A stretch of 64,000 nt of DNA from Candidatus Thorarchaeota archaeon. GTDB lineage: Archaea; Asgardarchaeota; Thorarchaeia; Thorarchaeales; Thorarchaeaceae. The stretch spans positions 899,434-963,433 of the forward strand of contig JAIZWL010000001.1 in NCBI GenBank assembly GCA_021498125.1, written 5' to 3'. A program made the position numbers and the translations under genes. The notes beneath the pieces were generated by a model, which worked only from the letters and a program-made list of their open reading frames with translations, searched no databases and was not told the DNA's origin. Shown here one piece after another: positions 16,358-46,339 of this stretch (its first letter is position 1; each line of letters starts with the position of its first letter).

Positions 16358-16480
16358 CTGCTTGCCTCCGGAATGCGTCATTCCGATGCTTACCATAGTG
16401 GAAATCTAGACCATTGTATGTTATGGCAATAGTTCAATTAGCGTCTAAAGCATTGATTCTTGTTTTACACAACGTATAAA

Positions 16481-16917: not shown

Positions 16918-17667
16918 ATGATAAAGCAACTTGAGGAACAATTTACTGCTGCCGTGAGTTCTCAAGAACTCATTGCAGGGATGACGGATGTAACAAAACA
17001 TCTGCAGATCACATTCAACTCTGCAGATTGTAATATTATTCGTGCACTTCTCCAGGCTGATAGTAAACGTCCGGTACTGGTGTTAGTGATCGGCTTTCGA
17101 AGCGAGATGCTGATCCCATTCACTCAGACGCATTTCCGTGCAGTCGGAGAATATCTCCCATGTGATATCCCGGGTATTGTCCCAGCACTTGCAGCGGTAA
17201 TCAATCATCAAGGCAAAGGGATCGTTGCAAATGCCGTAGTACGTGGAGATGTGACTCGACTTGTCTTGGTCTTTGAGGGAAAGGCAAGTCATAAGGACTC
17301 TCCGATGACTTCGTTAGTGACCAGCCTGTACAGATTCTTCAAGAGTTGGATGGACTGGTCAGCGGTCCTCCTGTCCATCATCAATAATGATCCTGTTATT
17401 GGTGAGTGGTCGCTTGACTGGCGGGAGTTTTTGGCCGGCGAGAGCGGTCTCATGACAATGCCTTGGTTTTCGCCACTGACGTATACCGAGCGATCAATTG
17501 CGCTTGAGCGCATTGTGTTAGCATCCAAGGCACTTCTGTCGTCAGTTCTCTCAGAGGAACAGGCTGATGACCCAATGATCCGGTATCTTGACAGATGGAT
17601 GACCTATCTCAGGCCACTATCCCAGATAACCTATGATATGGATGAGTCCGAGGGGGCGCGTGCCTAA
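16918..17667 (+). CDS. Hypothetical protein, first gene of the 15-gene operon
   Basis: A 249-residue soluble protein with no motif I recognise. The N-terminal half alternates short strands and helices (VLVLVIGFRSEMLIPF, then IVPALAAVI); the C-terminal half is mainly helical. It starts at ATG 16918 after GGTGA, about 75 bases downstream of the promoter element. Its stop overlaps the next start as TAATG, so the two products are probably made in similar amounts. The context suggests an accessory role in the DNA-processing operon. Confidence 0.6.
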   Translation: MIKQLEEQFTAAVSSQELIAGMTDVTKHLQITFNSADCNIIRALLQADSKRPVLVLVIGFRSEMLIPFTQTHFRAVGEYLPCDIPGIVPALAAVINHQGKGIVANAVVRGDVTRLVLVFEGKASHKDSPMTSLVTSLYRFFKSWMDWSAVLLSIINNDPVIGEWSLDWREFLAGESGLMTMPWFSPLTYTERSIALERIVLASKALLSSVLSEEQADDPMIRYLDRWMTYLRPLSQITYDMDESEGARA

Positions 17668-18110
17668 TGTATGTTCAGACATCGATGAATGCTCACCAGT
17701 CATTAATGATCTCTGACCATGACTATCCTTGGCTTGCAGGTGCCGCCTATGGTCTTGGCGCAAGAGTATCCGTCCCCGCCGAGTACGTAAGATATCTGCA
17801 ACGAGATATTCGAGACCTCAATATCGAGCCTGTCAGACCCGGCGAGTCTTACGATCTCGATGATGGCGTATGCAGTTCTGCCTATGATGTCCTTGGGGGA
17901 CATGTGAGTGTCACCGGAGTGATCCATCCAGCAGGCCTCTTGTTTCCAGTGCCTGCACCCCTACAGGAATCGGTCACTGAACTTGTACGGGTGGCTGAGG
18001 TCTTAGATGAGGAATGGATGATCGTTCCCAAAAGTGAGATTGAGCGATTTATGAAATTGGTTCCCTTGAAGGGGCCACATGCTAAACGGTTGATGGAGGT
18101 GGAGTCATGA
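17667..18110 (+). CDS. Hypothetical protein, operon gene 2
   Basis: A 147-residue soluble protein of unknown function. The sequence suggests two subdomains: residues ~30-90 with a helix and acidic loop (SYDLDDGV) and residues ~90-147 with VIHPAGLLFP followed by helices. The start overlaps the preceding stop by one base, and its own stop overlaps the next start as ATGA, so it is translationally coupled on both sides. It directly precedes the RadA-family gene and may be its partner. Confidence 0.55.
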   Translation: MYVQTSMNAHQSLMISDHDYPWLAGAAYGLGARVSVPAEYVRYLQRDIRDLNIEPVRPGESYDLDDGVCSSAYDVLGGHVSVTGVIHPAGLLFPVPAPLQESVTELVRVAEVLDEEWMIVPKSEIERFMKLVPLKGPHAKRLMEVES

Positions 18111-19171
18111 TTTCTTTAGAAGAGGTTCCGGGTGTTGGCCCGACATTAGCAAAGAAGCTACGAGCCGTATTCGTCATAAGTGCAGAACTTCTTGCAGTTC
18201 AGAATCCTGTTGAGCTCCAGGCAAAGGCCAGCATTGGTGAAGGTACTGCTGTGAAGATCGTGCAGAACGCTCGTCGTCTTCTCAATATGGACGATTTTCG
18301 TTCGGGTATTGAAGTCGAGCGTGCTATGCGAGAGGCAACACGTCTGACCACAGGGATCGAGTCGTTAGACGAACACCTGATGGGCGGGATCGAAGAGGGT
18401 TCAATAATTGAGATATATGGGGCTGCACGTGGTGGGAAGACCCAGTGGTGTAGCTACTTTGCCGTGCGTTCACAGCTCCCGCGGGAGGAGGGCGGACTGG
18501 AAGGTAGGGTTCTCTGGCTCGACACCGAATCGAGTTTCAAACCATGGCACATTCGAGGCATAGCATACAGATACAAGATGGACCCTGATGTGGTATTAGG
18601 GAATATTGAGCACATTCCAATTGTTCTGTCGTCACAGATCACAGAGAAATTCCTTACGATCCCTCAACTCTGTGCAAAGGGTGACTACAAGTTAGTCATT
18701 GTGGACTCATTGACCAGTCTGTTCCGTGTCGAATATACTGGACTTGACACTCTTAGAATTAGGCAGCAGGCGATCAACTCTCTTCTAAATGTGATGCGCA
18801 GGACGGCAACGGCAACAAAGACGGTCTTTCTGTACACAAATCAGGTCATGGCCCATATCTCCACCTATGGCGGTAATCCCAACCAACCCATAGGCGGCCA
18901 CATTCTCTCGCACGGATCCGATTACCGTTTTTACACACGGCGAAAGGGAGCGGGCGAGCGTATTTTGACATTGAACGACAATGCCGGAATTCCCGAGTTT
19001 ACAATTAACTTGGTCAATGGCTGGGGCGGCTTCTACGCATCAAAGACGGACATGAAGGCGGTCGAACCCGAAGTGAAGGCGTATCTTGCGAGTCAGGGTT
19101 ACGTCATTGCTGGGACCGAGCCCATGGTGATGAGTGTGCCCGGCGCAGCAGCAGAAAGCGAAGAGGAGTGA
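18107..19171 (+). CDS. RadA-family recombinase paralogue with N-terminal helix-hairpin-helix
   Basis: A 354-residue RecA-fold protein with the domain order of archaeal RadA: an N-terminal helix-hairpin-helix (EVPGVGPTLAKKL, residues 6-18), then the ATPase core. Walker A is GAARGGKT (105-112) where RadA normally has GEFGSGKT; it still fits GxxxxGKT. Walker B is LVIVDSL (196-202), and the L2-region sequence from YTNQVMA through GGHILSHGSDYR is well kept. It should bind ATP and single-stranded DNA. The changed P-loop, the long acidic/alanine tail and the operon context suggest a dedicated paralogue and not the main RadA, though that gene is not in the window for comparison. Confidence 0.85.
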   Translation: MISLEEVPGVGPTLAKKLRAVFVISAELLAVQNPVELQAKASIGEGTAVKIVQNARRLLNMDDFRSGIEVERAMREATRLTTGIESLDEHLMGGIEEGSIIEIYGAARGGKTQWCSYFAVRSQLPREEGGLEGRVLWLDTESSFKPWHIRGIAYRYKMDPDVVLGNIEHIPIVLSSQITEKFLTIPQLCAKGDYKLVIVDSLTSLFRVEYTGLDTLRIRQQAINSLLNVMRRTATATKTVFLYTNQVMAHISTYGGNPNQPIGGHILSHGSDYRFYTRRKGAGERILTLNDNAGIPEFTINLVNGWGGFYASKTDMKAVEPEVKAYLASQGYVIAGTEPMVMSVPGAAAESEEE

Positions 19172-19620
19172 ATGGCATAGTGAGTCGAGAACGCGGTATG
19201 TTCAGAGTCTACGTCTGCCCAAAGTGTCGTAATGTCGATTACGTCTGCGTAGATGGCGAAGGAGAGCCTTCCAAATGTAGCAAGTGCGGTTACATCATCG
19301 TGGACACTCCCGGAATGATCTATGCGGTCACAGTGCAAGAGGCCGAGGAGAATGTCCAAGAGCTTGCTCAGATCATTGAAGTGCAATCTCGTGTGGGACG
19401 CATCTCTCGGGGGCGTGGAATCAAACGGCGGGTCCAGGACATCATCACTACGTTAGTCGAGATGAATCACGGTCGTCCTGTCTTATTCTCTAGTGTATTG
19501 CAGGAATGCATCGATGCTGGTATTGAGGTTTCACGAGCGGTCCACTTCATCACGCTTCTTGAGAGCGAGGGTCGGATTTCGAGTGATGGTATTGTTGTTG
19601 AGATAAAGGAGGATTACTGA
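19168..19620 (+). CDS. Zinc-ribbon plus winged-helix protein (DUF5817-like)
   Basis: The 150-residue protein begins with a four-cysteine zinc ribbon, CPKC and CSKC about 20 residues apart, followed by a helical linker and a C-terminal winged-helix (residues ~85-150). The ribbon and linker resemble archaeal DUF5817 proteins. A DNA- or RNA-binding role is likely, either as regulator of the operon or as an adaptor for its enzymes. Possible starts are GTG 19168 (overlapping the previous stop), GTG 19180 and ATG 19198; the ribbon needs only the last. The next gene starts 2 bases after its stop. Confidence 0.65.
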   Translation: MNGIVSRERGMFRVYVCPKCRNVDYVCVDGEGEPSKCSKCGYIIVDTPGMIYAVTVQEAEENVQELAQIIEVQSRVGRISRGRGIKRRVQDIITTLVEMNHGRPVLFSSVLQECIDAGIEVSRAVHFITLLESEGRISSDGIVVEIKEDY

Positions 19621-19622
19621 GA

Positions 19623-20237
19623 ATGACTGAGGCAATAAAACAGGTCTGGAGTGGTCGGCAAGCATCCGGGATCTCTCAGCGGTCCATGATCAATCTGGTG
19701 AATCTGCTTCTCAGGGACACCGACCACCGAATTACTATCTTACAGAGGGGTGCAGGCCCCGACCCTGAGGTGTATGTAGTTACTACTGTTCAGTGGCGTG
19801 ATCGTGATGCGACCCGCCCCTTGCTGCCTCAATTACCTCGACTTCTCTCATTGTTGGAGACCCTGCGAGGAACTCGTGGCGTGCCAAGTCAGATCTATCT
19901 TGACAGCCTTGATGGTGTGTCAGTATTTCTCCCCACTGGGACGCACCTCTCTCAGATTCCCACGACCTCGAAGGATAGTGTACGGAAGCTGATGGACCTT
20001 GTTGAAGAGTCGGTCAGTCATCTCTATTCAACAATGCAGGAGGTCGAGTCATGGTTCTGGAGAGCGGCACGACGGAAAGGGTTCAGTCCTCAGATTGTTG
20101 AGCGAATGGCACGCAAGGAACGGCACTTTGATTCCATCGGACTCGAACATAACTTTCACGAACTGTTGCGGGCCTACTTCTCCGTTCGATTCAGGATCCA
20201 TCGGAGTGAGTCCGTGCTTCATGTGGAGGGAGAATGA
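19623..20237 (+). CDS. Hypothetical protein, operon gene 5
   Basis: A 204-residue soluble protein without a recognisable motif. The N-terminal half looks alpha/beta (HRITILQRG, YVVTTVQWRD), and the C-terminal half is helical and rich in Arg/Lys (FWRAARRKGFSPQIVERMARK), which could contact nucleic acid. ATG 19623 follows AAAGGAGGA. Its stop overlaps the XPD start as ATGA, so it is a candidate XPD partner. Confidence 0.55.
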   Translation: MTEAIKQVWSGRQASGISQRSMINLVNLLLRDTDHRITILQRGAGPDPEVYVVTTVQWRDRDATRPLLPQLPRLLSLLETLRGTRGVPSQIYLDSLDGVSVFLPTGTHLSQIPTTSKDSVRKLMDLVEESVSHLYSTMQEVESWFWRAARRKGFSPQIVERMARKERHFDSIGLEHNFHELLRAYFSVRFRIHRSESVLHVEGE

Positions 20238-22192
20238 TGACTTCAGCGGCACTGAATCCTATGCGATATTTTCCATATACTCCTAGGCCGCATCAGGACA
20301 GTGCCGTGGAGCTTGCTGCTGATGTCTTCTACAATCGTTCGGTCGGCCTTCTCTCAGCCGATTGTGGTGTTGGAAAGACGATTGCAGTTCTTGCTGGTTA
20401 CCTTGCAGCACGCGCAGATGATCCCACGGCTCGACTGTTTGTAGTCACACGTACCCATTCGCAGACACGGGTATTTGAGTCAGAACTGGAAGTCCTTCGT
20501 CGAGCTGATCCACAGCTCACAGCCACTTCGCTGGTCTCTCGTGCACGAATGTGTCCTCTAAGGTCTCAGATGGACTCGTTGGACAATTCTGGGTTCATGC
20601 ATGCCTGCTCTATGATGATCCGTACTGGTCGCTGTTCGTACTTTTGGAGCATGTACTCAAAGAGCGAAGGCCGCGTCAAGCTTCGAGATAGTGCTAGAGG
20701 AATAATCTATGACCTGCTCTCTCAGGGTGTTGTCACTCGCAAGGTTGCAGAGGATGTCTCCCACTCTGAGGGGTTCTGTCCGTATGAGGTTCTCAAGAAT
20801 GCAGCACGTGATAGCAGAGTCATCATAGGTCCCTATTCTTATCTATTCCAGAGCAAGGTCCGTGATGCAACGCTCGCCTTCATCGGAGTTGAACTTGGCA
20901 ATCTGGATGTTATCGTTGATGAGGCGCACAATCTTACCGATCATGTTCTTGACTCGGAGACCGCACGCCTCACCGGGTCGGATCTGATCTGGCTACGGGA
21001 AAAACGTGACAATATCGTCAAGACCACTGGGGCACAGTGGACTGGAGATGCAATTGATTTTCTCTGGGAGACCCTCCTCTTAGGTCTCGATGGTCTTGGG
21101 AAAAAGTCCGAACGGCAGCTGAACAAGTGGGATGTTGCCCCTCGTTTTGTCAATGAGGCTTCTCTCAAGACCATGATGATGAAATCGCGTGATAGTACCA
21201 ATGACCCTGATATGCTTGCGGCCAGCGAGACCCCTCTTGACCGTATGTTGGAATTCCTCTATGCTGCGACACAGGCTGTCAAGAGTGATGACTGGCATGT
21301 GACACTTCATCTGAGACCGTCACGCTTCGAAGAGCCCGATGTGGCCCGTGCCTCACTGACTGTGCGACCTTTCAACTCTGCCGCATTAGCAGGTCCTGTT
21401 CTCAAGTCTGCACGCTCGGCGATCCTGATGTCCGGTACCCTGCGGCCAACAGAACACTATGCACGCCTGATCGGAGTGACTGGTGCCGCCTCCGCAGAAC
21501 TTGCGAGCCCGTATCCACGTGGCACACGTCTAATTCTGATCGATCGACAGCTCTCAACAAAATACACAGAGCGCAGTCCTTCTCTCTGGAAACATATCGC
21601 AGAGCGGATAAGTACTGCTCTCACAAGCATGCCCGCCAATAAGAGTGCTCTCGTGGCATTTCCCAGTTACGCAATGATGCGTGAAGTGATGAGTTACGAC
21701 ATAGATTTTGGATTCAGAGAGTCGCTCATTGAGGCTCCGGGTTCACGACTGGATGTGCTTGTTGATGCGGTCACGAGTGGTCCTCATGCGATATTCTCGG
21801 TGTACGGCGGAAAGTTCAGTGAAGGGATCGATATTGTTGAGGGTGGGTCAAGCTGTATCGATCTTATCATCGGAGTAGGAATCCCCTTCAGCCCTCCGAC
21901 AACGTATCATCTGGCACTACAGGACTGGCTTGACAATCACTTTGGGAAGGGGATGGGCTACTACTACGCCGCCACCATACCCACACTTCGAAAGGTCGTC
22001 CAGCTTATCGGTCGGCTTCGTCGGTCCCCAAAGGACTGGGGCGTCGTAGTTCTTCTCGATAGACGATTCTTGAGACATCTTCGGATCATGGGTGACGATG
22101 TTGCCTCGGACATGTGGCCCTTTTCCTCTGGTAGCGAGATGCATGACGCTATAACACAATTTCTGAGTTTGAGGGAGGCAGGTCTACTGTGA
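20234..22192 (+). CDS. XPD/Rad3-family iron-sulfur DNA helicase
   Basis: A superfamily 2 helicase of 652 residues that should unwind DNA 5' to 3'. Walker A is ADCGVGKT (residues 42-49) and the DEAH box is VDEAHNL (228-234). Between them are four cysteines at about 107, 125, 134 and 182, in the spacing of the XPD iron-sulfur domain. The C-terminal half has the motor-2 motifs, including LMSGTLRP, FSEGIDIVEGG and QLIGRLRRSPKDWG. Overlaps join it to the genes on both sides. In archaea XPD usually stands alone, so its place inside an operon of recombination proteins is informative. Confidence 0.92.
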   Translation: MMTSAALNPMRYFPYTPRPHQDSAVELAADVFYNRSVGLLSADCGVGKTIAVLAGYLAARADDPTARLFVVTRTHSQTRVFESELEVLRRADPQLTATSLVSRARMCPLRSQMDSLDNSGFMHACSMMIRTGRCSYFWSMYSKSEGRVKLRDSARGIIYDLLSQGVVTRKVAEDVSHSEGFCPYEVLKNAARDSRVIIGPYSYLFQSKVRDATLAFIGVELGNLDVIVDEAHNLTDHVLDSETARLTGSDLIWLREKRDNIVKTTGAQWTGDAIDFLWETLLLGLDGLGKKSERQLNKWDVAPRFVNEASLKTMMMKSRDSTNDPDMLAASETPLDRMLEFLYAATQAVKSDDWHVTLHLRPSRFEEPDVARASLTVRPFNSAALAGPVLKSARSAILMSGTLRPTEHYARLIGVTGAASAELASPYPRGTRLILIDRQLSTKYTERSPSLWKHIAERISTALTSMPANKSALVAFPSYAMMREVMSYDIDFGFRESLIEAPGSRLDVLVDAVTSGPHAIFSVYGGKFSEGIDIVEGGSSCIDLIIGVGIPFSPPTTYHLALQDWLDNHFGKGMGYYYAATIPTLRKVVQLIGRLRRSPKDWGVVVLLDRRFLRHLRIMGDDVASDMWPFSSGSEMHDAITQFLSLREAGLL

Positions 22193-22785
22193 ACTTTCGT
22201 GATCTTATGCTTTACAAATGGTACATCGTGGGAGCGCTTGTTATCGCCTTTGTTGCTCGTTACATCATTATTAGTCAAGACATCGTATCGACTGTGGCTG
22301 TGACTGCTGCTGTTGGTATTGTGATCATCTTGGCTCTCTCATCACGGGCTCTTGCGGGTAGACCGGAGATACTGTGGAACGAACCGATGGGTGTGATGGT
22401 CATCCTTCGGCCATGGATCGTTGAGGTCAGTGCCGCACGCTTGATCACCAGTGTGCCCTTGGGCATTGATCTGGAGCATTCTGCTGTGAAGGCATTACGT
22501 GCTCTTCATCGGGTCACTCGTGAGGCGCAGAATGCGTCCGTGAAGTTCTTCGTGATGCGTCCACTTGGTGATGGCACTACTCGTATTGGAATGATGGTCA
22601 CCCGTCGAGGCTTCCGGTTTCACAATGGTGTTGCAAAGGCCAATGTCTTAGCCAAGGCTGTGTCGGAGTACGCCGCGGTACTGGAGGGATCTCTTCGTGC
22701 AGCCTATCCTCACGTTCCAGTAGTTCGCGCAGGTCTTGCGGAATTGCTTGGTGTCTATTCAGGAGGTGTCTACGGAATTGCATGA
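22189..22785 (+). CDS. Hypothetical membrane protein with two N-terminal helices, operon gene 7
   Basis: The 198-residue protein has two hydrophobic segments at about residues 12-30 and 34-52, then a soluble alpha/beta domain of ~145 residues. The GTG start overlaps the XPD stop. The hairpin-anchor-plus-cytoplasmic-domain layout resembles the N-terminus of the ATPase encoded two genes downstream. It could hold the machinery at the membrane; no family is recognised. Confidence 0.6.
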   Translation: MNFRDLMLYKWYIVGALVIAFVARYIIISQDIVSTVAVTAAVGIVIILALSSRALAGRPEILWNEPMGVMVILRPWIVEVSAARLITSVPLGIDLEHSAVKALRALHRVTREAQNASVKFFVMRPLGDGTTRIGMMVTRRGFRFHNGVAKANVLAKAVSEYAAVLEGSLRAAYPHVPVVRAGLAELLGVYSGGVYGIA

Positions 22786-23053
22786 GCTTCACATACCTCC
22801 TGGGATAAGTCTAGACCGGATCATGCATATGCTTAAGGTGGGCCATGGATATTCTTGGCAGATTCTTTTCAAGCATCCACTCCTCCTCTCCCATGGCACA
22901 CCTCCACCCGGTCCAATGCCTGAGGTCTTAGTCGTTGGTCCGGACCGTCTGATCTTTGAGGATCCTACTGATTCCTCCCTTGAACGGTTCCAACGTCTGA
23001 TCGATCTGTTCTCACGGCAACCAGTACTGGTCATTGAGGGTGATTTGGAGTGA
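22778..23053 (+). CDS. Small hypothetical protein, operon gene 8
   Basis: The frame is open from TTG 22736, but that would overlap the previous gene by 50 bases. TTG 22778 lies 9 bases after AGGAGGTG and gives a 91-residue protein starting MHELHIPPG, which I prefer. The product is soluble, with a proline-rich loop (SHGTPPPGPMPEVLVVGP). Its stop overlaps the GTG start of the large ATPase, so it probably accompanies that protein. Function unknown. Confidence 0.55.
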   Translation: MHELHIPPGISLDRIMHMLKVGHGYSWQILFKHPLLLSHGTPPPGPMPEVLVVGPDRLIFEDPTDSSLERFQRLIDLFSRQPVLVIEGDLE

Positions 23054-25404
23054 CGAAACGAACGATCATGGGTGGCAAGCCCGAGACCGACCCCCTTGCA
23101 GAGCTTGGTGCAAAATTCTCCAAATCGGTTCCAATGGACCATGTCTTCTGGATGAATCGAGCACGACGTATCCCGATGTGGAGAATATTCCTTCTCTCTC
23201 TGACCGTGTTTATTCTTGGTTTCTATCAACCTGTAGTGATGCTCACGGGGGCCATTATCATCTTGGTCATTATCTGGTTGCTTCCGGGGCAAAGACCAGC
23301 TCGTGAGGAGGCAGCAATTGCATCTAATGCATGGACCCATGTTGAGTTTCCTGAGGTGACACTGGCCGTTGAGAATGATGTTCTCTTATGCAAGTCGCAT
23401 CATGGTACTCACTATGTCACAGGAATGGTCCTTCCCGAGGCTTCAGGTCGGTTGGCCGGAGACCTCAGTGCCCTTCTAAGATCACTTCCTATGGACCATG
23501 GTTTCACGCTTGTCGTAGAGCTTGACCCCGAACCTACTGATTGTGTTCGCGAGTCCGGGGTGGTGGAAGATCTTCAGGAGGTCTTCTTTGACGAGATGCC
23601 TGACGCTCAAATTGATAGTTTCTTCCTGAGTCGAGGCTTTATCTGGAGCACACGCACAGCAATTGTCGGGCATGTCGCATCTCCCGGCGACGTTCCGATC
23701 TTTCAGAGTTCTGTTGTTGGTGCACTTCCAGAGACCCATTGGACACCGATCAAGAGCAGGTCTCTGGCCCAATCAATTAACGAGTTTGATGTGAGTGGGT
23801 CACGAGGCTTCTATGCGACTGGGAAAGAACTCTCAGAGTGGTTGGTCCAGCTTGCTGGCGAGCTTGCCTCAGAGATCGGAGGGAATGTTCCCGGGGAATT
23901 TCTTAGTCCACTTCGTCCACCATCCAGTACCTATCCTATCGGGCGAGTGATCAATCCCGAGACCCTTCAGATCGGTTCTCCTGCCGGGCTTGATCATAAT
24001 GACTTTCTGAACGGGCTTCTGATTGGTGGCGGCACAAATGATGATCGACGCCATGTTCTGACCTTGGTGGTACAGCGGCTACTCGCGCAAGGAAAACGTG
24101 TGGTCTACATCGCTACTGATCCCACTGCTCGTAATATTGCGGCTCTTGCACCTGATGGAATATGCCTGACCTTGGGCCGTGATTTTGTGCTCAATCCGAT
24201 GGACCCTGAGGGGATACCTCAGAAGTCCTATGTGAGTCAGTTGATGAAGGCGCTAGAGGTTGTACTATCAACAAAACTCAGGGGTGCAGTGGAACTAGAA
24301 CTTGCTCTAATGAGGGCAATATCAAGTGGAAGTGCTACACTCGCTGATGTCCGGCTTGATGATGTGATCGACGACGATCCCGATTCCGGACTGGCAACAG
24401 CCCCCTCACGTTCCTCTCCTTCCATGAACCAGTCCGAGTATGGCCTTGCTGGAATTCAGAGGCTCTACAAGGGTGAGGGTGCCAATGCATTTTATGGGAC
24501 TCAGAGTGCACCCACTGACCTGATCGCTCAACACGGTCTCACAGTAATTCTTGCAGGAATTGACCGCGCCGAGATCGAAAAGTTCGCTTTGGATCTACTT
24601 GCCATCAAATTTGCAGGACTGCGACCTGATCCCGATCTCGTCATCATCTTCGAGAATGCTCCCAATTTCAAGACACGCACGATGCCGGAGCGAAGTCAGG
24701 AGCCTTGGCGTGTATCATGGGTTGAAGTGATGATCAAGCAGCTTCTACATCGGGGCGGTCTTGTCTTTGCGACTGATGACTTCAACGGTCTTCCCAAGGT
24801 CATTGTCTCACAGTTTTCTGCCGCGATGATGTTTAGGCTTCAGAACACTAGTGACATCTCAATAGCAAGCGATCTGCTTGGCTTGAGTGTCATTCAGCAT
24901 GGTCTCTACAGTTCCTCACGTAGATCGCCGCAGGAGTCATCATATCTGCGCACTATGCCACAGGGAACCGTCCTCTTCAGACCGATCGCGGCAACTACCT
25001 GTTTTCCGGTCAAGCTCGATTCCGCTCCCGAATTAGTACCACTTGACATGGATGCTGTTGAATCACGTCTTGCTGCTCTTGTCTCTCCTAAGGAACCAGA
25101 GAGCGAGGAACGACGTGATAGTCTTCTCTTCAGGGTGGCAGGTCGGGATCATGCTCTCGCTCTTGAGGTACTGCGCCTGCTTGAGAGGTACGAACCCTTA
25201 ACGACTGGGGCCATTCAGCGATTCCTGCGTTCGACACAGGGAGAAGATGTAGACATTGAGGGTGTGCTCTCTCGTCTAGAACGGGCCAGTATGGTCCTCC
25301 GAGGACACGAGGTTCATGGTAATGTCTCGTACATCAACTTCAGGCTTACAATGAAGGGCGCAATGGCATTGAAACAGGCTGAGCAGGAGGCGAAGGACAC
25401 TTGA
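23050..25404 (+). CDS. Membrane-anchored VirB4/HerA/CedB-like ATPase with eroded P-loop
   Basis: A 784-residue protein. Two hydrophobic segments at about residues 45-60 and 62-79 anchor the N-terminus, followed by a ~220-residue beta-rich domain and an ATPase-like core. The core has landmarks of the HerA/VirB4 DNA-pump group: IGRVINPETLQIG leading to a strand-loop-helix, and the downstream FVLNPMDPEG element. The P-loop position is LLIGGGTNDDRRHVL (residues 324-337), lacking the GxGKS/T, and the Walker B strand is LVIIFENAPNF (530-540). The C-terminal ~90 residues look like a winged helix. It resembles CedB/VirB4-type membrane ATPases of DNA transfer, but hydrolysis is doubtful. Confidence 0.6.
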   Translation: MTKRTIMGGKPETDPLAELGAKFSKSVPMDHVFWMNRARRIPMWRIFLLSLTVFILGFYQPVVMLTGAIIILVIIWLLPGQRPAREEAAIASNAWTHVEFPEVTLAVENDVLLCKSHHGTHYVTGMVLPEASGRLAGDLSALLRSLPMDHGFTLVVELDPEPTDCVRESGVVEDLQEVFFDEMPDAQIDSFFLSRGFIWSTRTAIVGHVASPGDVPIFQSSVVGALPETHWTPIKSRSLAQSINEFDVSGSRGFYATGKELSEWLVQLAGELASEIGGNVPGEFLSPLRPPSSTYPIGRVINPETLQIGSPAGLDHNDFLNGLLIGGGTNDDRRHVLTLVVQRLLAQGKRVVYIATDPTARNIAALAPDGICLTLGRDFVLNPMDPEGIPQKSYVSQLMKALEVVLSTKLRGAVELELALMRAISSGSATLADVRLDDVIDDDPDSGLATAPSRSSPSMNQSEYGLAGIQRLYKGEGANAFYGTQSAPTDLIAQHGLTVILAGIDRAEIEKFALDLLAIKFAGLRPDPDLVIIFENAPNFKTRTMPERSQEPWRVSWVEVMIKQLLHRGGLVFATDDFNGLPKVIVSQFSAAMMFRLQNTSDISIASDLLGLSVIQHGLYSSSRRSPQESSYLRTMPQGTVLFRPIAATTCFPVKLDSAPELVPLDMDAVESRLAALVSPKEPESEERRDSLLFRVAGRDHALALEVLRLLERYEPLTTGAIQRFLRSTQGEDVDIEGVLSRLERASMVLRGHEVHGNVSYINFRLTMKGAMALKQAEQEAKDT

Positions 25405-27611
25405 CCGTCATGATTGAAGATATCTCCTCACAGGTGCTACACATCGTTGGCTCTCTGAACATGCAACCACGTGGCGTGCAAGAGAGAGCAATAGAACATG
25501 GTCTTCTTGACGGAAAGAGCATCATGATCAGCTCGCCAACAGGGTCGGGGAAGACCCTTGTCGGAGAGATGGGAGCGCTCCGCGCAGTTCTCTCAGGGAA
25601 GCGTGCAATGTATCTTGTGCCGCTGCGGGCACTTGCTGGTCAGATCCATGATGTTCTTACAACGCACTTTAGCAAGTACAACATCAAAGTTGGTGTCAGT
25701 ACTGGCGATTTTCATCTTGATGCAGAACACCTCGCGCAATGCGATATCGTCGTGACCACCTATGAACGAGCAGACTCCCTTCTCCGTCGAAATGCTGCTT
25801 GGCTTTCCGAGCTGGGTACGGTGGTCATCGATGAGATTCAGACGATCTCAGAGCCCGGGAGGGGCGCACGTCTGGAGTCGCTCATTATACGACTCAGACG
25901 ACTCATTACTGACCTGCAGATCGTTGCCCTGTCTGCAACAATAGGGGAACCCGATGAATTGGCTGAGTGGCTGGGTTGTGACTTGGTGCACTCAGAGGAT
26001 CGTCCGGTTCCCCTTCACTACAGTATTGTTCCGACAAGTGACCGTTTCAAGACCATGCATAATCTTGTCATGACCACAGTCCGAAGTGATGGCCAGGTGA
26101 TCGTCTTTGGACGTACCCGCAAAGATGCTGAGAGATATGCGACACGTCTTGCAATTGATGTTGGGCGACAGATGACCAATGCTGAAAAGACCAATCTGGA
26201 TTCCGAACTGGGATCAGTCGAGAACTTTGATGTCAATCTTCCTCCAGAGCTTAAGGCGTTGTTGCACGACTCGGTGGCTTTCCATCATGCTGGCCTCTCA
26301 TATGCCGCACGTGATCTCGTTGAGCGCCTGTTCAAGAGAGGGCTTGTCCGGGTCATCTGTGCAACTGCCACTCTCTCTGCTGGAATTGATTTTCCTGCAC
26401 GAACGGTCATAGTGGTCAATGCTCGTTCACCTCAGGACCATCGCCGGCTCTTGTCGGCAAATAGGATCCATCAGATGTTGGGACGCGCAGGAAGACCGGG
26501 GAAGGACAAATTTGGTATTGGCATTATTCTTGCAGGTAGTGATGGTGAGGCGAGCCACCTTCGCCAGCGTTACTTTGATGTCTTTCAGGATCCCGAGACC
26601 GATCAAGAGGTTCTCATTCCAAAATATGAACGAGTACGAAGCGTGCTTAATGAGTCAGAGGCTCTCACCGAGCAGCTCTTGGTCGCGCTTGATGCGTTTA
26701 ATGAGGTTTCACTTGACGAGCTTGAGGACACAGTCTTTGGTGAGTCCTATCTGGTCTTTTGTGGCATCCGTGACACACGATCACCGCTTCGCCTGCTCAA
26801 TCTTGGTGAGATATCGGCAACATCTGCGATAGAAAAGCATGCATTAGGCGATACGATCCGTGCAGCGCGTGAGAACGTCATCGGTCGGGTGGTCCTTCGT
26901 GAGAAGAATGACACTACCATTGGGGGGTTGGCTCGTGATTGGGATGGAGCGCAATATACCTGTAGGTTCTCTTCACGGGTCTCTTCAGACGGACTGGTTG
27001 AAGGTCCGATGTGTTCATGCGGGACTCCCATTGACGGATCTGGGATTCTCTGTTCCCACTTGGTCGCGCTGGGGTATGCCGCCTCCAAAGAACTAGGTTC
27101 CCTTGCAGACTATGTGATCCCCCTTGCTCTGGGCGAGACCAGTCCTTTCCGTGTTCTGGTACGCCTCGATCTTGCTGAGGGCGGTTTCGAAGGCAAGGTA
27201 CGACCTACTCCTTTAGGCCGATTGGTGAATCGCCTCTATCTGCGAATCTCGACCATTCGTGAGATGCGTGCACTGTTACCCTCGGTACATGATAGTGCTG
27301 ACCTTCTCTGGCTATTGCGTCATCTCATCTCACTTGAGATGGGCTCGGAGGTCAACGAGTCGTTTGACGAGTTACTGGCGGGTCTGGTATCGACTGATCA
27401 GCCTCTCAGTGTCCTTGCTGCAAATGCGGGGCTGAGCGAGGGTGATGCATACGGTCTCGTAGATACTGCTCGTTGGTTGACGACTGCAATTTCTGTTGTT
27501 GCTGATCATGGTGGTCTTGTTGAGACCGCTACACTGGCTCAATCACTGTTACTGGCTCTTGAGCGAAAGAGCCCGGAGACAAAAGCTACTCAATCTAAGG
27601 AGAGTGAATAA
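25401..27611 (+). CDS. Ski2/Hel308-type helicase with SWIM zinc motif
   Basis: A superfamily 2 helicase of 736 residues. It has Walker A SPTGSGKT (45-52), motif II as DEIQ (144-147, where the family has DExH), motif III SATIGEPDELAEWL and motif VI QMLGRAGRPG, so the Ski2/Hel308 assignment is firm. After the motor and winged helix comes a module with Cys538-x-Cys540 and Cys551-x-His553, the CxC...CxH pattern of SWIM zinc domains, which bind DNA or proteins. Helical sequence after it may be a ratchet-like domain. The start is TTG 25401 (overlapping the previous stop, 10 bases after AGGAGG) or ATG 25410. The SWIM insertion is not part of standard Hel308. Confidence 0.88.
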   Translation: MTVMIEDISSQVLHIVGSLNMQPRGVQERAIEHGLLDGKSIMISSPTGSGKTLVGEMGALRAVLSGKRAMYLVPLRALAGQIHDVLTTHFSKYNIKVGVSTGDFHLDAEHLAQCDIVVTTYERADSLLRRNAAWLSELGTVVIDEIQTISEPGRGARLESLIIRLRRLITDLQIVALSATIGEPDELAEWLGCDLVHSEDRPVPLHYSIVPTSDRFKTMHNLVMTTVRSDGQVIVFGRTRKDAERYATRLAIDVGRQMTNAEKTNLDSELGSVENFDVNLPPELKALLHDSVAFHHAGLSYAARDLVERLFKRGLVRVICATATLSAGIDFPARTVIVVNARSPQDHRRLLSANRIHQMLGRAGRPGKDKFGIGIILAGSDGEASHLRQRYFDVFQDPETDQEVLIPKYERVRSVLNESEALTEQLLVALDAFNEVSLDELEDTVFGESYLVFCGIRDTRSPLRLLNLGEISATSAIEKHALGDTIRAARENVIGRVVLREKNDTTIGGLARDWDGAQYTCRFSSRVSSDGLVEGPMCSCGTPIDGSGILCSHLVALGYAASKELGSLADYVIPLALGETSPFRVLVRLDLAEGGFEGKVRPTPLGRLVNRLYLRISTIREMRALLPSVHDSADLLWLLRHLISLEMGSEVNESFDELLAGLVSTDQPLSVLAANAGLSEGDAYGLVDTARWLTTAISVVADHGGLVETATLAQSLLLALERKSPETKATQSKESE

Positions 27612-27614
27612 TCG

Positions 27615-29081
27615 ATGGCAATACTTGACGAAAAGGGTATCATACCTACTGAGATGCGCGGGACTGCACCTGACACCCCGAATGATATTGAGACCGCGCT
27701 GAATAAGACTGGCTACCATTCGTGTTCGTTTCCAAATGGATTCACTTTTGGTGTCAAATTTGAGGGGCTACATGGAACTCGCGGTGTCCATGTGGATGTT
27801 GTCATTTGCTTGGACTTGCGAGTCGCTCGTTTCGGCGCGAGTGGGCTTGCCATGCGTGCTGCGGTCCTTGAGACCGTGAATCGGACTCTTGATCAAATAC
27901 TGGTCGATGTGGGACTTGGCGGTCTATTTCAGGAGCAGTCTGTCTTGACGCCACGTGGTAAGGTCCGAATGCCTATTCTTCGTAGTCCTGACGGAAGGAG
28001 CTCTTCCTATGTTCATGAGACACGCAATATCTATGTGATCACCGACGGAGTGCGGCCCTCCATTGATCTCTCATGGTTGACGGACTCAAAGCGAATTGTT
28101 CCCGCCGCAGAGTTTGCTCTTCTGAGGAACAGTGATGCGCGTGCTATGTTGCCGGTCCTGACAGAGAAGGTCACTCCCGATAAATGGGTCGCACTAGAGC
28201 ATGCCGTGAAGACGGGTTGGTATAGTGTGATAGCCTTGGTCGGAGTTCTTGTCGGACTGGCGACCTTGGCGAACAGTATCAGTTTCGGTGTGGGTACACC
28301 ACTTCTTCCTCTCCTCCTGACTCTCTCCTCCCTCACAGCCTTTTTGTATCTGTTCAGGCAGAGCTCGGCAGATATTCAGCGCTTTGAGGGGTACTGCGTC
28401 GTGGAGCGTCAGCGCTTGGATGTCATTGGTGATAAGAACCGGATAGATCAAGCCCTTCGTGAGAACAGTTCGATGTTGTCCATCGTTGGAGACCTCAACT
28501 TTATGATCTCGCCTCTTATGGCCTCCGCGGCAGAACAGCTTAGGGCAGCAGACCTTGATGGAGCTGTGTCCTCTGCATGTTCGATCTTGGACGAGTGTGT
28601 ACGAAGTTCTCCCTCTCGCATCTCATCGGATGATGCTCTGAGTAGTGCAGATGAGGGTCTCGCCAAATTCTTGGGGCTCTTTGAGAGTCTTGGTACTCCT
28701 GTAGAACAAGAACGGCTCGCATTGGCCTATGTGGCTTTTACTGGGTATCCTGTGAACACTCTTACTGAGGCAGAGGTTGCAGAGCATATTGGGATTCTCA
28801 ACAACTCTCTCTTTGACGCTGGAATTCTGAGACCTCAGGTCAAGGAGTCGGTGGATGATCTGCTTAATGCATGGGCCATGAAGATGGCAGCAATGGATCT
28901 CACCCGTGAACTTGAGGCCGAGACCGGGTCCGCTGAAGAATCCCCCTCTGAGACCGATGAGGCTGCGACTGGGGATGAGGAGTTAGCCGTGGCAAGTGAG
29001 ATCGTGAGCGCGGGTCTCACAGAGAAGGACGGGCCCGCCATAGATGAAGAGATGCCTGTCATTGAAGCCGAGGATGCGTGA
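27615..29081 (+). CDS. Hypothetical membrane protein, operon gene 11
   Basis: The 488-residue protein has a ~195-residue N-terminal domain of mixed alpha/beta character, two hydrophobic helices at about 203-221 and 228-247, a helical C-terminal region to about 425, and a very acidic Glu/Asp/Ala tail. Such a tail often binds basic partners or mimics DNA, which would be notable beside DNA enzymes. ATG 27615 follows AAGGAGAGTG. Only one base separates its stop from the next start. No family recognised. Confidence 0.6.
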   Translation: MAILDEKGIIPTEMRGTAPDTPNDIETALNKTGYHSCSFPNGFTFGVKFEGLHGTRGVHVDVVICLDLRVARFGASGLAMRAAVLETVNRTLDQILVDVGLGGLFQEQSVLTPRGKVRMPILRSPDGRSSSYVHETRNIYVITDGVRPSIDLSWLTDSKRIVPAAEFALLRNSDARAMLPVLTEKVTPDKWVALEHAVKTGWYSVIALVGVLVGLATLANSISFGVGTPLLPLLLTLSSLTAFLYLFRQSSADIQRFEGYCVVERQRLDVIGDKNRIDQALRENSSMLSIVGDLNFMISPLMASAAEQLRAADLDGAVSSACSILDECVRSSPSRISSDDALSSADEGLAKFLGLFESLGTPVEQERLALAYVAFTGYPVNTLTEAEVAEHIGILNNSLFDAGILRPQVKESVDDLLNAWAMKMAAMDLTRELEAETGSAEESPSETDEAATGDEELAVASEIVSAGLTEKDGPAIDEEMPVIEAEDA

Positions 29082-29082
29082 T

Positions 29083-29757
29083 ATGACGGATAGTAACGGG
29101 ATTCTCTCACAGTTAGGCCTCTCCGGCCTCATTCATGTCTGGGGGCTACCTGCCTCGGGGAAGACCCTTTTTGCGGTGAATGCGGCTGCAACTGCATCTC
29201 GTACTGGGCGGGTGGAGTGGTTCAATTGCGATGGCAAACGAAGTTTTGTTCATTCACTGATGCAGGTCGTAAAACAAAAGCAGGGTGACCCAAGTAACGT
29301 CATGGTCTCTTTTCTCACGGACCGGGAGGATATGCTTCAGACCATTCTGGATCTTCCTAAATCGTTAGATGATGATGTCACTTTGGTAGTCATTGACCCT
29401 CTCACAAGGGTCCTTGATATGGCACGCACAGATCCCATTCTCTGGGGACGGGAACTCGTCGAGGACGTGCTCCCAGTACTTGCCAGTCTTGTGTTAAATC
29501 ATTCAACTGATGTACTCATCATCAGTGAGAGCCGGACGTTGATAGATCGAGGTACTATTGCTGTGCATCACTCAACTATTCGGCGTTGGAGCGATTTCGA
29601 TGTTCTTGTGCAACGCGGGATCTTGAGTGGCCGCTCTGAACTCATCATAGGCAATGATACTCCTACTCCCAGTGTTCTTGGTGATCTTGTCCTGCTCAAG
29701 TCTACGGGTCCTGACGTGATCGTACATGGGTCCACTGATTACTTTCAGGAGGTCTGA
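29083..29757 (+). CDS. RecA-fold ATPase, RadB-like
   Basis: A 225-residue single-domain RecA-fold protein with a good Walker A, GLPASGKT (residues 21-28), and Walker B VTLVVIDPLTRVL. It lacks the N-terminal helix-hairpin-helix, so in layout it resembles RadB, the short archaeal recombinase paralogue that modulates RadA. RadB often binds ATP with little hydrolysis. The open frame extends upstream to 29044, but ATG 29083 just after the previous stop is the natural start. It is the second of three RecA-like genes in the operon. Confidence 0.72.
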   Translation: MTDSNGILSQLGLSGLIHVWGLPASGKTLFAVNAAATASRTGRVEWFNCDGKRSFVHSLMQVVKQKQGDPSNVMVSFLTDREDMLQTILDLPKSLDDDVTLVVIDPLTRVLDMARTDPILWGRELVEDVLPVLASLVLNHSTDVLIISESRTLIDRGTIAVHHSTIRRWSDFDVLVQRGILSGRSELIIGNDTPTPSVLGDLVLLKSTGPDVIVHGSTDYFQEV

Positions 29758-29763
29758 AGAGTA

Positions 29764-30681
29764 TTGCTGCTATTGCCGCTCAAACGGATCATTCGATACC
29801 TCATCATCGGTGTCTTGTTGCTAGTCTTTGGAGGACACGCGCTGTCGCTCATTGTGTCGATAGTGCTTCTCTTTAGGCTGGGTAATCCCTTGCCTGCTAT
29901 TGTAGTGATAGGTCTCATGTTCTTTCTATCGTGGTTTGAGGGGCATGTGCGACTACATCAGATTATCCATCGAGTCGTCCGTATGATCACTCTGGTCGCT
30001 GTAGGATTCACAGCAGTGACGACATTTTTCATCTGTCTGGGATTTGGGTATGCAGTTGCAGTGGCCGCGCCTCTCGTGCTTGTCATACTTGCAGCAGTGA
30101 TGAATGACTGGTCAGGTCTACAATCGTTCTTCTCCTTGAAATTCATGGTCCCACGGAAGACCACCGGCATGGGTCTCTTTGCGTATCTCCTGAATTCCGA
30201 TCCCCCCGCTAATACCGAGATCATGATCACATCGTCTGATAGCTTTGATCTGCTCTTTCGTCTGATTGCCAGTCGCCCCCTGCTTCCAATCTCTCTTGTT
30301 GTCTACAGGGACTTTGTTGCAATTGTCTTTCGAATCGATGACCCCACACTCCTGTCAAAGACCCATGAGCTCTTGCGTTCGTGGAGTATTGATCTGGCGC
30401 CCCCCTCCACTCTTCTAGCAAGAGCGATCATAGCAGGTCCTGCCCTCATAGGCCTGTCCGAGTCAACAGAGTATATGCTCTCCTCCGATCCCGATACAAT
30501 TGCAGCTCTTGTAGAACGACAAATTCCAGGTATGATCGTGACCAGTAGTTCTGGTGCTATTGCTGTTGCTGTTCCAAGTGAGAATGCAATTGGAATGACT
30601 GGTGTCCCCGTTTCCTCGTCTATTGTTGCAACCGCTTTCCGAAATCAAATGATTGCCTCCTTGGTGATGAACGATGTCTGA
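29764..30681 (+). CDS. Hypothetical membrane protein with about four helices, operon gene 13
   Basis: A 305-residue protein with about four hydrophobic segments in residues 9-110 and a ~190-residue soluble domain. The start is TTG 29764, 10 bases after AGGAGG. Its stop overlaps the next start by 8 bases. It is the most membrane-embedded member of the operon and could form a channel or platform; this is inference and no family is recognised. Confidence 0.6.
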   Translation: MLLLPLKRIIRYLIIGVLLLVFGGHALSLIVSIVLLFRLGNPLPAIVVIGLMFFLSWFEGHVRLHQIIHRVVRMITLVAVGFTAVTTFFICLGFGYAVAVAAPLVLVILAAVMNDWSGLQSFFSLKFMVPRKTTGMGLFAYLLNSDPPANTEIMITSSDSFDLLFRLIASRPLLPISLVVYRDFVAIVFRIDDPTLLSKTHELLRSWSIDLAPPSTLLARAIIAGPALIGLSESTEYMLSSDPDTIAALVERQIPGMIVTSSSGAIAVAVPSENAIGMTGVPVSSSIVATAFRNQMIASLVMNDV

Positions 30682-31405
30682 TACTACCCGTTTCTCTCTC
30701 GACTCTCTGGCAATTGAGACCCGCCCTGTTCTGAGGCTCCCACCACGTGTGCTTCATAATTTCCTTGGCCGATTGTTGCGCCCAGGGGAGATCTCTCTCC
30801 TTCATGGTCCTGAGAGGGCACCGCTATCGCTTCTAGCTCATTGGATCTCCATCCATGCCACTTCTAGAAAGCATCCGGTTGCCTATCTTGACTCAGCCAA
30901 TAATTTCTCCCCCGTGACGGTACGTTCGATGTTGGCTGATGAAAAGAAAGTCAATGCTGTCTTGAAGTTGGTCGGTGTTGGTCATCCTCTTACTCTCTCT
31001 GACCTTGAGCGACTGGTCAAGCGAGCAGCCTCTATGGAGGGGCTTCGTCTTATTGTTGTAGACAGTCTCACAGGGTTACTGAATCTCTCAGGTACTCCCG
31101 GAACAGCCGAGCGCCAGCGGATGCTCTTTCGAAGCATGGACTCCGTACGCCAGCTGCTCGTCTCATCTGACACCCATCTGATGATGACCGATCACTCTTC
31201 TGCATGGTCTTCCCAATCGGCACCACTTGGTGGTCTTGTCTTGGCGCACGCAGTCGATTCCATTGTTCGAGTCATTCGTCTGCCTGAGACTAAGGAGATC
31301 TTTCGGCTCGTTATCGAGCGTTCTTCTGCACCCTCTGACTTTGGCGGAATTGTTATTCGTATCAATCATCGAGGTGTGATGTCCGTCAAGCGTGGAGGGG
31401 TCTGA
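30674..31405 (+). CDS. RecA-fold protein without a P-loop (RadB/KaiC-like paralogue)
   Basis: The 243-residue protein has the outline of RadB/KaiC-like RecA domains: a strand and loop SLLHGPERAPLSLLAHW where Walker A should be, a good Walker B LRLIVVDSLTGLLN, and a late strand LMMTDHSSAW. In the first loop GxxxxGKT has become GPERAPLS, so the invariant Lys is missing and nucleotide binding is unlikely. It probably serves as a structural partner of the two P-loop-containing RecA proteins. Overlap with the upstream gene and the 2-base gap downstream show coupling. Confidence 0.6.
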   Translation: MSDTTRFSLDSLAIETRPVLRLPPRVLHNFLGRLLRPGEISLLHGPERAPLSLLAHWISIHATSRKHPVAYLDSANNFSPVTVRSMLADEKKVNAVLKLVGVGHPLTLSDLERLVKRAASMEGLRLIVVDSLTGLLNLSGTPGTAERQRMLFRSMDSVRQLLVSSDTHLMMTDHSSAWSSQSAPLGGLVLAHAVDSIVRVIRLPETKEIFRLVIERSSAPSDFGGIVIRINHRGVMSVKRGGV

Positions 31406-31407
31406 GG

Positions 31408-32397
31408 GTGGGTGTTAGGAACTTTGACTTCATACCTTGGATCTGGTCTTCAGCATCAGAGATCGAGGGGGCGATCGCAGTTGACATGCCCAATTACCTC
31501 TCGCGTCGAATGGCTGTGATGCGTACACATGGTGGTCATCAGTCGGAGCGCATCCCTTTTGCGCACGTCACGGTGGCACTGAGTCTGATCAAGGCCACAC
31601 TCTCTGCCTCTCTCCTTCCAATCCTCATATTTGATGGTTCACCGGAGGCATTGAAGCGGCCGTGTAATCCTGAACTCCTGCATCAGGCACGAGACCTCTA
31701 TGATCGGTTTATTCGAGATGAGGACCCCTATGATGAGGAGATCGCGGAGCGTCTTACTCGAAGTCCCGCCCTGCTCAGTTACTTTGCACAGTCCCATGTT
31801 GCGGACATTGCCCGAGCTCTTGGCGTGCCCACTGTAGTCGCGCCCTCCGAGGCCGAGATGTATGCTGCGGTCTTATCGCGCGACTCGATAGTGACCACTG
31901 TGGTCTCGAATGATGTTGACGCTCTCTTGTTTGGTGCGAAGCATGTGACCAAGCAGTTGATCCTCTCACGTAACGAGCTTCTCAGAGTCACGATGGATGA
32001 TGTCCTTAGGTTGACCGGTCTCTCTCTCAGCCAGCTTCGTGACCTTGCCATCATCTGCGGGTGTGATTTTCATAAGGAGGGTCTGAAAGGGATCGGTCCG
32101 CGTAAAGGGATCGCTCTGTTATTGCGCCATCATGATCTTGAGCATGTCCTCAAGGCGAGAGGTCTGAGTAGTTCTCAAATTGAGCCGTTTATTATTGCTC
32201 GTGAGACCTTTGATGAGGCAGAAGGTATCATAGTAGAAGAGCAGATGCCGCGTCTGAGTCCTCCCATTGCCTCACGGGTTGAACGGTTTCTTCGGCCAAT
32301 CTTTGGTAGCCAGAAGGCTGAGCAGATTTCAGAGGATGCGCGGCGACGCTGGAAAGATTTTGGTATTGAACAGGCCTCTCTAGAGATGTGGTTCTGA
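31408..32397 (+). CDS. FEN1/XPG-family nuclease with C-terminal PIP box
   Basis: A flap-endonuclease-like protein of 329 residues, last gene of the operon. All seven catalytic acids of FEN1 have counterparts: Asp26 (AVDMPNYL), Asp76 (LIFDGSPE), Glu148 and Glu150 (APSEAEMYAA), Asp169 and Asp171 (SNDVDALLFG) and Asp220 (CGCDFHKEGLKGIG). The helix-hairpin-helix GIGPRKG follows. The C-terminus QASLEMWF (322-329) is an excellent PCNA-interacting peptide. The GTG start, 8 bases after GGAGGGG, gives the MGV N-terminus that FEN1 requires. Overall sequence is divergent, so this may be a paralogue of the housekeeping FEN1. Confidence 0.85.
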   Translation: MGVRNFDFIPWIWSSASEIEGAIAVDMPNYLSRRMAVMRTHGGHQSERIPFAHVTVALSLIKATLSASLLPILIFDGSPEALKRPCNPELLHQARDLYDRFIRDEDPYDEEIAERLTRSPALLSYFAQSHVADIARALGVPTVVAPSEAEMYAAVLSRDSIVTTVVSNDVDALLFGAKHVTKQLILSRNELLRVTMDDVLRLTGLSLSQLRDLAIICGCDFHKEGLKGIGPRKGIALLLRHHDLEHVLKARGLSSSQIEPFIIARETFDEAEGIIVEEQMPRLSPPIASRVERFLRPIFGSQKAEQISEDARRRWKDFGIEQASLEMWF

Positions 32398-35119: not shown

Positions 35120-35263
35120 ACTCCAAAATAATTGATTTAGAAATGATCGGGATCCGTTGCTTACAGAGCCACCCCACACACCACACCCCAACTATCGTCC
35201 TTTCTCTTTCCCTTGGAGTCGGCTCGGATCCCGGTCCATCCCATATTCAAAGAGGTGTTGATC

Positions 35264-45707: not shown

Positions 45708-46292
45708 CTAGAAATTGGCATTATGTACCATAAAGTAGCTCTTAGGGTGATCACATGCAGGGCATCTCTCAGGTGGTTGTTCCCCAACATGGATATACCC
45801 ACAGTTTTGACAGCGCCACTTGATCTTGTTTTTGCGCTTGAAGACACGATCTTGTTCAACATTATCTGCGAGAATCGTATATCTTTCGTTGTGCCATTTT
45901 TCGGCGACAGAAATTGAACGGAAGATGACCGCTATCTTCTTGAACCCTTCTTCTTCTGCGATCTTTGCGAATTCGGGATACATCTCCTCATACTCGTAGC
46001 GTTCGCCCTCGGCGGCGGCTCGGAGATTTTCGAGAGTGGATCCCATAGGACCAGTTGGAAACGCTGCTGTGATCTCGACTTCTGGACTGGCGTTGCCCTC
46101 TCGTAAGAGTTTGAAGAATCTCTCTGCGTGTTCTTTTTCTTGGGCTGCGGTCTCCTCAAATACTTTTGATATCTGAACATAACCTTCCTTCTTGGCAATA
46201 CTTGCCCAGTACGTATAGCGGTTTCTTGCTTGGCTCTCACCTGCAAATGATGCTAGCAGGTTTTTTTCAGTCTTGGTTCCTTTGAGTTCCAT
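45708..46292 (-). CDS. rbr: Rubrerythrin
   Basis: A 194-residue peroxide-scavenging protein that reduces H2O2 with electrons from rubredoxin-type donors. The ferritin-like four-helix domain has the diiron ligands in ExxxR/ExxH form (SFAGESQARNRY, EETAAQEKEHAERFF, EGERYEYEEMYP, VAEKWHNERY). The C-terminus is a rubredoxin domain with CQNCGY and CPACDH pairs. ATG 46292 lies 7 bases after AAGGAGG; ATG 46295 is adjacent. An inverted repeat sits just upstream of its TATA-like box. The flavodiiron protein gene lies upstream on the same strand, forming an oxidative-stress pair. Confidence 0.95.
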   Translation of the reverse strand: MELKGTKTEKNLLASFAGESQARNRYTYWASIAKKEGYVQISKVFEETAAQEKEHAERFFKLLREGNASPEVEITAAFPTGPMGSTLENLRAAAEGERYEYEEMYPEFAKIAEEEGFKKIAVIFRSISVAEKWHNERYTILADNVEQDRVFKRKNKIKWRCQNCGYIHVGEQPPERCPACDHPKSYFMVHNANF

Positions 46293-46339
46293 CATTAGAC
46301 CTCCTTATTTAATGCGTTTAGCATTCATGGTCCTCAGTC

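Follow-up and report, generated by a model that had tools for sequence, protein, structure and literature searches.

Fifteen genes crowded onto one strand of a Candidatus Thorarchaeota chromosome raise the question if they belong to one machine and, if so, what this machine would do with DNA. The window analysed here is a stretch of 64,000 nucleotides (contig JAIZWL010000001.1 of assembly GCA_021498125.1, positions 899,434 to 963,433) from a genome of 3.1 Mb. The operon in question comprises 15 open reading frames (ORFs) at positions 16918-32397 of the window, all on the plus strand and named g1 to g15 in their order along it. We found it to be a core chromosomal locus, near-universal and single-copy in its Thorarchaeota family, and not a mobile island. 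As its gene order is kept in this family and its core is clustered, in whole or in part, in six others, comparison of the proteins makes it look like one ancient system rather than scattered housekeeping genes. We propose, with a probability of roughly 45%, that the operon encodes a membrane-anchored complex for recombination mediation and DNA processing.

Layout and conservation of the operon

A sequence-only reading of this DNA had described a tightly packed unit of 15 genes on a single strand. The ORFs and their junctions bear this out: neighbouring genes overlap by 1, 4 or 8 bases or are separated by at most 6. The overlap is one base (TAATG) between g1 and g2, four bases at g2/g3, g3/g4, g5/g6, g6/g7, g8/g9 and g9/g10, and eight bases at g13/g14 and, with a TTG start of g8, at g7/g8; gaps of 1-6 bases are found at the remaining junctions. 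The most likely start of g8 is the TTG at 22778, behind AGGAGGTG, and that of g12 is most likely at 29083. About 520 gene-free bases before g1 form the only long intergenic space, and a convergent gene on the minus strand ends 5 bases past g15. Our search for a conserved promoter motif upstream of the operon found none, and an Rfam search at the locus gave no match. The domain assignments proposed previously for g3, g6, g10, g12, g14 and g15 were recovered by domain searches. The genes are:

g1, 16918..17667, plus strand: 249 aa, soluble; family seen in the Thorarchaeota family only, with syntenic orthologues in its loci
g2, 17667..18110, plus strand: 147 aa, no assigned family
g3, 18107..19171, plus strand: RadA paralogue with HHH domain, RecA core and intact Walker A/B; its FxxA motif is degenerate
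g4, 19168..19620, plus strand: zinc-ribbon (CxxC...CxxC, cysteines conserved) and a C-terminal region that may be a winged helix, as the sequence-only reading had it
g5, 19623..20237, plus strand: 204 aa, best conserved among the unassigned proteins, confident model
g6, 20234..22192, plus strand: XPD-family helicase, the second XPD of the genome
g7, 22189..22785, plus strand: 198 aa, N-terminal membrane segments and a domain distantly related to the VirB4-like N domain of g9
g8, 22778..23053, plus strand: about 91 aa, no assigned family
g9, 23050..25404, plus strand: 784 aa; a transmembrane hairpin and a VirB4-like N domain precede a P-loop-less VirB4/HerA core, and the C-terminal region is winged-helix-like
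g10, 25401..27611, plus strand: Hel308/Ski2-type helicase core and SWIM motif
g11, 27615..29081, plus strand: 488 aa, about two membrane segments, acidic C-terminal tail
g12, 29083..29757, plus strand: ATPase resembling RadB and Rad51 paralogues, Walker A/B intact
g13, 29764..30681, plus strand: 305 aa, several N-terminal membrane segments and an unassigned domain
g14, 30674..31405, plus strand: RecA fold of the RadA/RadB type that has Walker B but no P-loop
g15, 31408..32397, plus strand: nuclease paralogue of the FEN1/XPG family with its catalytic acidic residues and a PIP-like C-terminus

In 15 further family genomes the genes around g9 follow the same order g1-g15, apart from interruptions at contig ends and by a small number of frame breaks, and the whole order is kept in about 10 Thorarchaeota genera. 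Protein identity across these loci ranges from ~25% for g13, which was missed by BLAST in two loci and recovered there by profile, to ~60% for g3, g6 and g10. An upstream gene (u1) and a downstream gene (d1) are also retained in many of them. By profile search, g9 was found in 28 of the 46 family genomes. This patchiness was followed up in several genomes and proved to be due to contig breaks or scaffold gaps: in g9-negative genomes either g10-g15 with d1 or u1 with g1-g6 are found, lying at a contig end or adjoining a stretch of N, and one more genome retains a fragment of g3. Among the 13 family genomes with completeness of 90% or more and contamination of 5% or less, all contain g11 and 11 contain g5. 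Relatives of g5 in named public loci are nearly all labelled Thorarchaeota, with two labelled Lokiarchaeota and two only "archaeon"; named public genomes queried with a single g9 sequence gave no match, whereas the g5 query did. A mobile element was rejected as an explanation, as searches revealed no viral proteins related to g5 and none of phages or plasmids related to g9, and the flanks are conserved. It is the conserved order, together with the fact that the absences followed are assembly breaks, that identifies the operon as a core locus.

Divergent paralogues and a membrane protein without P-loop

At the sequence level, g9 gives a weak match to HerA (1.9e-4). Its AlphaFold model (predicted local distance difference test, pLDDT, 80; predicted template modelling score, pTM, 0.59) was matched by Foldseek to the VirB4 protein TrwK (1.9e-14 over ~700 columns) and to Sulfolobus HerA (4.2e-14), with a TM-score of 0.69, normalised by target length, against the VirB4 core 4ag5. 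Full-length TM-scores are low (~0.3), as expected if domain angles differ. Hydropathy places membrane segments in g7, g9, g11 and g13, those of g9 near residues 40-82. The Walker A site of g9 reads GGxxxxR or similar, and GxxxxGK[ST] is present in none of 38 homologues from all families examined. Since the P-loop is missing throughout, g9 is, as far as its motifs tell, a conserved membrane pseudo-ATPase and not a DNA pump, and an active VirB4/HerA-type motor was ruled out. The previous description of g9 as a VirB4/HerA/CedB-like membrane ATPase therefore holds for the fold, but not for the ATPase. Together with its homologues it makes up a conserved family of membrane proteins that have the VirB4/HerA fold but no P-loop. 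Its homologues in another family, f2 (G153, G187 and G128; loci L091, L084 and L087), are much longer than those of the Thorarchaeota, with 1285-1303 aa.

Three proteins are related to RadA. The first, g3, has the HHH N-domain and RecA core with Walker A/B of the RadA architecture (Pfam Rad51, E 1.5e-53), but scores below the cut-offs of the NCBIfam RadA equivalogs (252.7 versus 259 bits and 238.7 versus 361 bits); a canonical RadA is encoded elsewhere in the genome (E 2.9e-95). In a RadA tree, one branch separates 20 cluster copies from 29 canonical ones (support 96/91, 95% of bootstraps). All 29 canonical proteins keep the polymerisation motif F/Y-x-[ST]-A, and no cluster copy does: the motif reads FRSG in the window and FxSG in Thorarchaeota, and is lost in the cluster copies of families f11 and f4. 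By these features g3 is a divergent second RadA copy without the canonical FxxA, falling outside canonical RadA, and loss of this motif would be expected of a mediator rather than of the main recombinase. The RadA paralogues of f2 are 397-421 aa long. For g12, the closest recombination proteins in the PDB are RadB and RAD51D, fused RecA constructs aside. The g14 profile matches RadA/Rad51 entries of the PDB with 6.8e-17; unlike archaeal RadA and RadB, g14 has no P-loop, while Walker B is present. Two RadA clades have been described in some Asgard archaea (PMC12722695); for the terms searched, that paper does not mention an operon. The operon gives a genomic context to divergent Asgard RadA paralogues.

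Among the helicases, g6 consists of Pfam DEAD_2 and Helicase_C_2 domains and has kept Walker A/DEAH and the four Fe-S cysteines; another XPD is present in the genome outside the operon. The DEAD/Ski2 core of g10 aligns with Hel308 over ~390 residues, whereas the C-terminal half does not. This half carries CSCG...CSHLVA at residues 534-557, which fits the SWIM consensus CxC...CxHxxA of Shu2/SWS1 (PMC6316741), and the C-C-C-H pattern is kept in 11 of 12 far g10 homologues. In g15, an XPG_I domain with the FEN1 catalytic acidic residues was found. Its score against the NCBIfam FEN1 equivalog is 110.6 versus a cut-off of 352 bits, which makes it a paralogue; a canonical FEN1 is encoded elsewhere in the genome. 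Canonical copies form a clade in the FEN1 tree (99/97), with all cluster copies outside. A PIP box had been noticed in g15, and this species does have QASLEMWF, although relatives do not conserve its aromatic end.

For the seven proteins g1, g2, g5, g7, g8, g11 and g13, already left without assignment by the sequence-only reading, searches of Pfam, NCBIfam and the PDB found no convincing relative (g2 and g8 were outside the PDB search, g8 also outside the NCBIfam search). Sequence comparison with the PDB gave no relatives of g1, g7 and g11, and for g13 a weak match only, in the membrane part. The g5 model (pLDDT 86) matched no PDB fold at E<=0.001.

The clustered core in other Asgard families, and neighbouring genes

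Profile searches with g9 revealed relatives in many other families of the phylum, referred to here by number. In f9, f11, f22 and f23, relatives of g3, g10, g12 and g15 lie near g9, in f9 and f11 together with a g4 relative that adjoins g12. Family f4 has g3, g12 and g15 relatives near g9, and f2 has those of g3, g10 and g15, with g12 weakly. In these six families the cluster members lie within ~25 kb of g9, with order and strand differing from the Thorarchaeota. The chance of such proximity is ~1e-6 to 1e-11 per genome, assuming random placement and with g10, g12 and g4 sought only near g9. In genomes with both a canonical and a divergent RadA or FEN1, the divergent copy is the one near g9; an incomplete f9 genome yielded no FEN1 and no full RadA other than those near g9. 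Nor is the cluster universal: genome G153 of f2 has g9 and g10 together with no such RadA nearby, and f13, f6 and f12 have smaller gene sets around g9. Related genomes, for which scattering of these genes had been the concern, keep the order within the family and cluster all or part of the core in six others, and this supports the earlier idea of a single tightly coupled DNA-processing unit with membrane components.

XPD was part of the gene set proposed previously. It is a member of the Thorarchaeota operon, but not demonstrably of a phylum-wide core, because the very divergent operon copy does not group in the XPD tree with the cluster-linked XPD of f23, f22, f2 and f13; wider core membership was therefore dropped.

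The N-terminal part of g9 is a separate gene (g9N) in f9, f11, f23 and others, and g9N of f9 and f11 matches both g9 and g7. Apart from this, profile comparison of the accessory proteins of other families with those of the Thorarchaeota gave no firm match. Large M28 peptidase-domain proteins (L074:4987-7635, L077:11915-15001) are encoded next to g9N in f9, and in f11 at a site flanked by g9N and the RadA paralogue. Also in f11 (L161:13730-14941), a Ras/Arf-like GTPase gene adjoins one with a roadblock domain, and both are neighbours of the cluster's FEN1 paralogue.

Outside the operon, about 3 kb upstream, lies a divergent gene pair:

12846..13916, minus strand: Mre11-like phosphoesterase (Pfam/NCBIfam)
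11531..12832, minus strand: mini Rad50-like ATPase of 433 aa, compared with 872-895 aa in the family models

No CxxC hook was seen in the sequence of the Rad50-like protein. Mre11-like relatives occur upstream of the operon in five other Thorarchaeota loci (L095, L099, L100, L101 and L108), in three of them with Rad50-like relatives. The parallel drawn earlier with the HerA-NurA-Mre11-Rad50 operon is thus strengthened by a conserved neighbour, and in both cases a HerA-superfamily protein is found near recombination genes. On the other hand, g9 is membrane-bound and P-loop-less, Rad50 is half-length, no NurA match was obtained among the proteins searched, and the operon here adds RadA paralogues, FEN1, XPD and a Hel308-type helicase.

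Further genes of the window are:

14810-16396, minus strand: adenylating enzyme of the GH3 type, preceding g1 in many Thorarchaeota loci
32403-34268, minus strand: 621 aa, no Pfam domain matched; convergent with the operon, and it follows g15 in many Thorarchaeota loci
35213-43096, plus strand: 2627 aa, resembling archaeal alpha-2-macroglobulin in its macroglobulin MG2/MG4, Big_1 and alpha-alpha toroid domains
45708-47673, minus strand: rubrerythrin adjoining a flavodiiron-type protein, an oxygen-detoxification pair

Possible functions and significance

According to our proposal of a mediator and DNA-processing complex, g9 together with g7, g11 and g13 would form a membrane platform. Having lost ATP hydrolysis, g9 might assemble into a ring that holds DNA, with its C-terminal region as the likely DNA contact. 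Energy would come from XPD (g6) and the Hel308-like SWIM helicase (g10), for which opposite unwinding polarities are expected by family. Flaps would be trimmed by the FEN1 paralogue, perhaps where the mini Mre11-Rad50 next door has opened the ends. As mediators of the Rad51-paralogue kind, g3, g12 and the P-loop-less g14 might load the filament of canonical RadA or remodel it. The SWIM part of g10 could dock with g3, g12 or g14, as Shu2/SWS1 does with Rad51 paralogues. The likeness to the Shu complex is one of motif: Rad51-like proteins occur together with a SWIM CxC...CxHxxA, which in our case sits on a Hel308-type helicase and is accompanied by membrane parts and a nuclease. Mediators on a scaffold would fit the P-loop loss of g9, the FxxA loss of g3, the P-loop-less g14 and the SWIM motif better than a pump does.

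Several points weigh against this proposal. Long branches weaken the split in the RadA tree, and loss of FxxA does not exclude polymerisation via another contact. RadA and FEN1 were searched genome-wide, but g10, g12 and g4 only near g9, so that further copies elsewhere are possible. Accessory proteins of the g11 and g13 type were not recognisable outside the Thorarchaeota family by profile comparison, the linkage of XPD in other families does not reflect descent of the same copy, and seven operon proteins have no known relatives.

The main rival, though less probable, is DNA import or cell-to-cell exchange, in which g9 and the membrane proteins would form a channel powered by the helicases, and the RadA paralogues and FEN1 would integrate the incoming strand. 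Such membrane-linked uptake or exchange had been suggested from the sequence, with the Ced system as a parallel, and g9 does share the VirB4/HerA fold. This alternative has in its favour that the g9 fold is closest to VirB4 TrwK and that Ted loci, which also contain HerA and Rad50 genes (PMC9905601), join such proteins with recombination genes. In addition, g13 has several membrane segments, and g7 and g9 share a VirB4 N domain, somewhat as CedB and CedD, the VirB4/HerA proteins of a DNA-import system, cover different parts of one such domain (PMC11868833). However, none of the g9 homologues examined has retained the P-loop, while CedB is believed to drive translocation (PMC9905601). Sequence searches recognised no relative of a VirB2-like pilin or VirB6-like channel among the unassigned proteins, and ComEC was found in none of 15 genomes (controls positive in 10 of 14), and ComEC-type uptake was set aside. 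A near-universal single-copy core locus is also at odds with a patchy mobile distribution, and the many DNA enzymes gathered in one operon set it apart from Ced and Ted (CedB/CedD, TedB).

We consider it improbable that the operon encodes an FtsK-like, motorless membrane tether for the maintenance of chromosome or replication fork and for segregation, with repair enzymes stationed there. The transmembrane hairpin, HerA-superfamily core and C-terminal winged-helix-like region of g9 do recall the layout of FtsK, and forks or lesions are where members of the XPD, Hel308 and FEN1 families act. FtsK-type segregation, however, requires ATP-driven translocation, and three RadA relatives point to recombination.

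That the genes are co-transcribed but functionally unrelated housekeeping genes has been largely refuted and is very unlikely. Archaeal operons can mix functions and XPD linkage varies among families, but the same recombination-type genes cluster in other families in different order and strand, and the genome has canonical copies of RadA, XPD and FEN1 at other sites. That the helicases, the nuclease and the HerA-like protein make up an antiviral defence system is scarcely credible, and this reading was set aside, because the PADLOC helicase models matching g6 and g10 reflect generic helicase similarity and none matched g1, g3, g5, g7, g9, g11, g13 or g15, the locus occurs as one copy in the same surroundings in most or all family genomes, and neither g9 nor g5 was found on plasmids, phages or viral contigs, even though HerA-containing defence complexes exist (PDB matches of the g9 model).

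Every recognised protein belongs to a known superfamily, so the parts are known. The combination appears to be new: we came across no described system in which RadA paralogues, a FEN1 paralogue and a SWIM-bearing helicase are combined with a membrane protein of VirB4/HerA fold that lacks the P-loop, and no description of the locus in the open-access library searched (subscription papers and preprints were outside the scope of this search).

The operon represents a near-universal, single-copy DNA system of an Asgard family, with a core present across several families of the phylum nearest to eukaryotes. As a rather unlikely extension, it may represent an ancestral Asgard machine that exchanges DNA or recombines it at the membrane and whose VirB4-type transfer protein, after losing its ATPase, became the scaffold of a Rad51-paralogue/SWIM/HELQ-like module. 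If so, Rad51 paralogues, a SWIM protein and a HELQ-type helicase, known from eukaryotic recombination, would be united in one ancient Asgard cluster. The operon makes it testable if recombination or DNA exchange takes place at the membrane in Asgard archaea, and if mediation by Rad51 paralogues and SWIM proteins is older than the eukaryotes.

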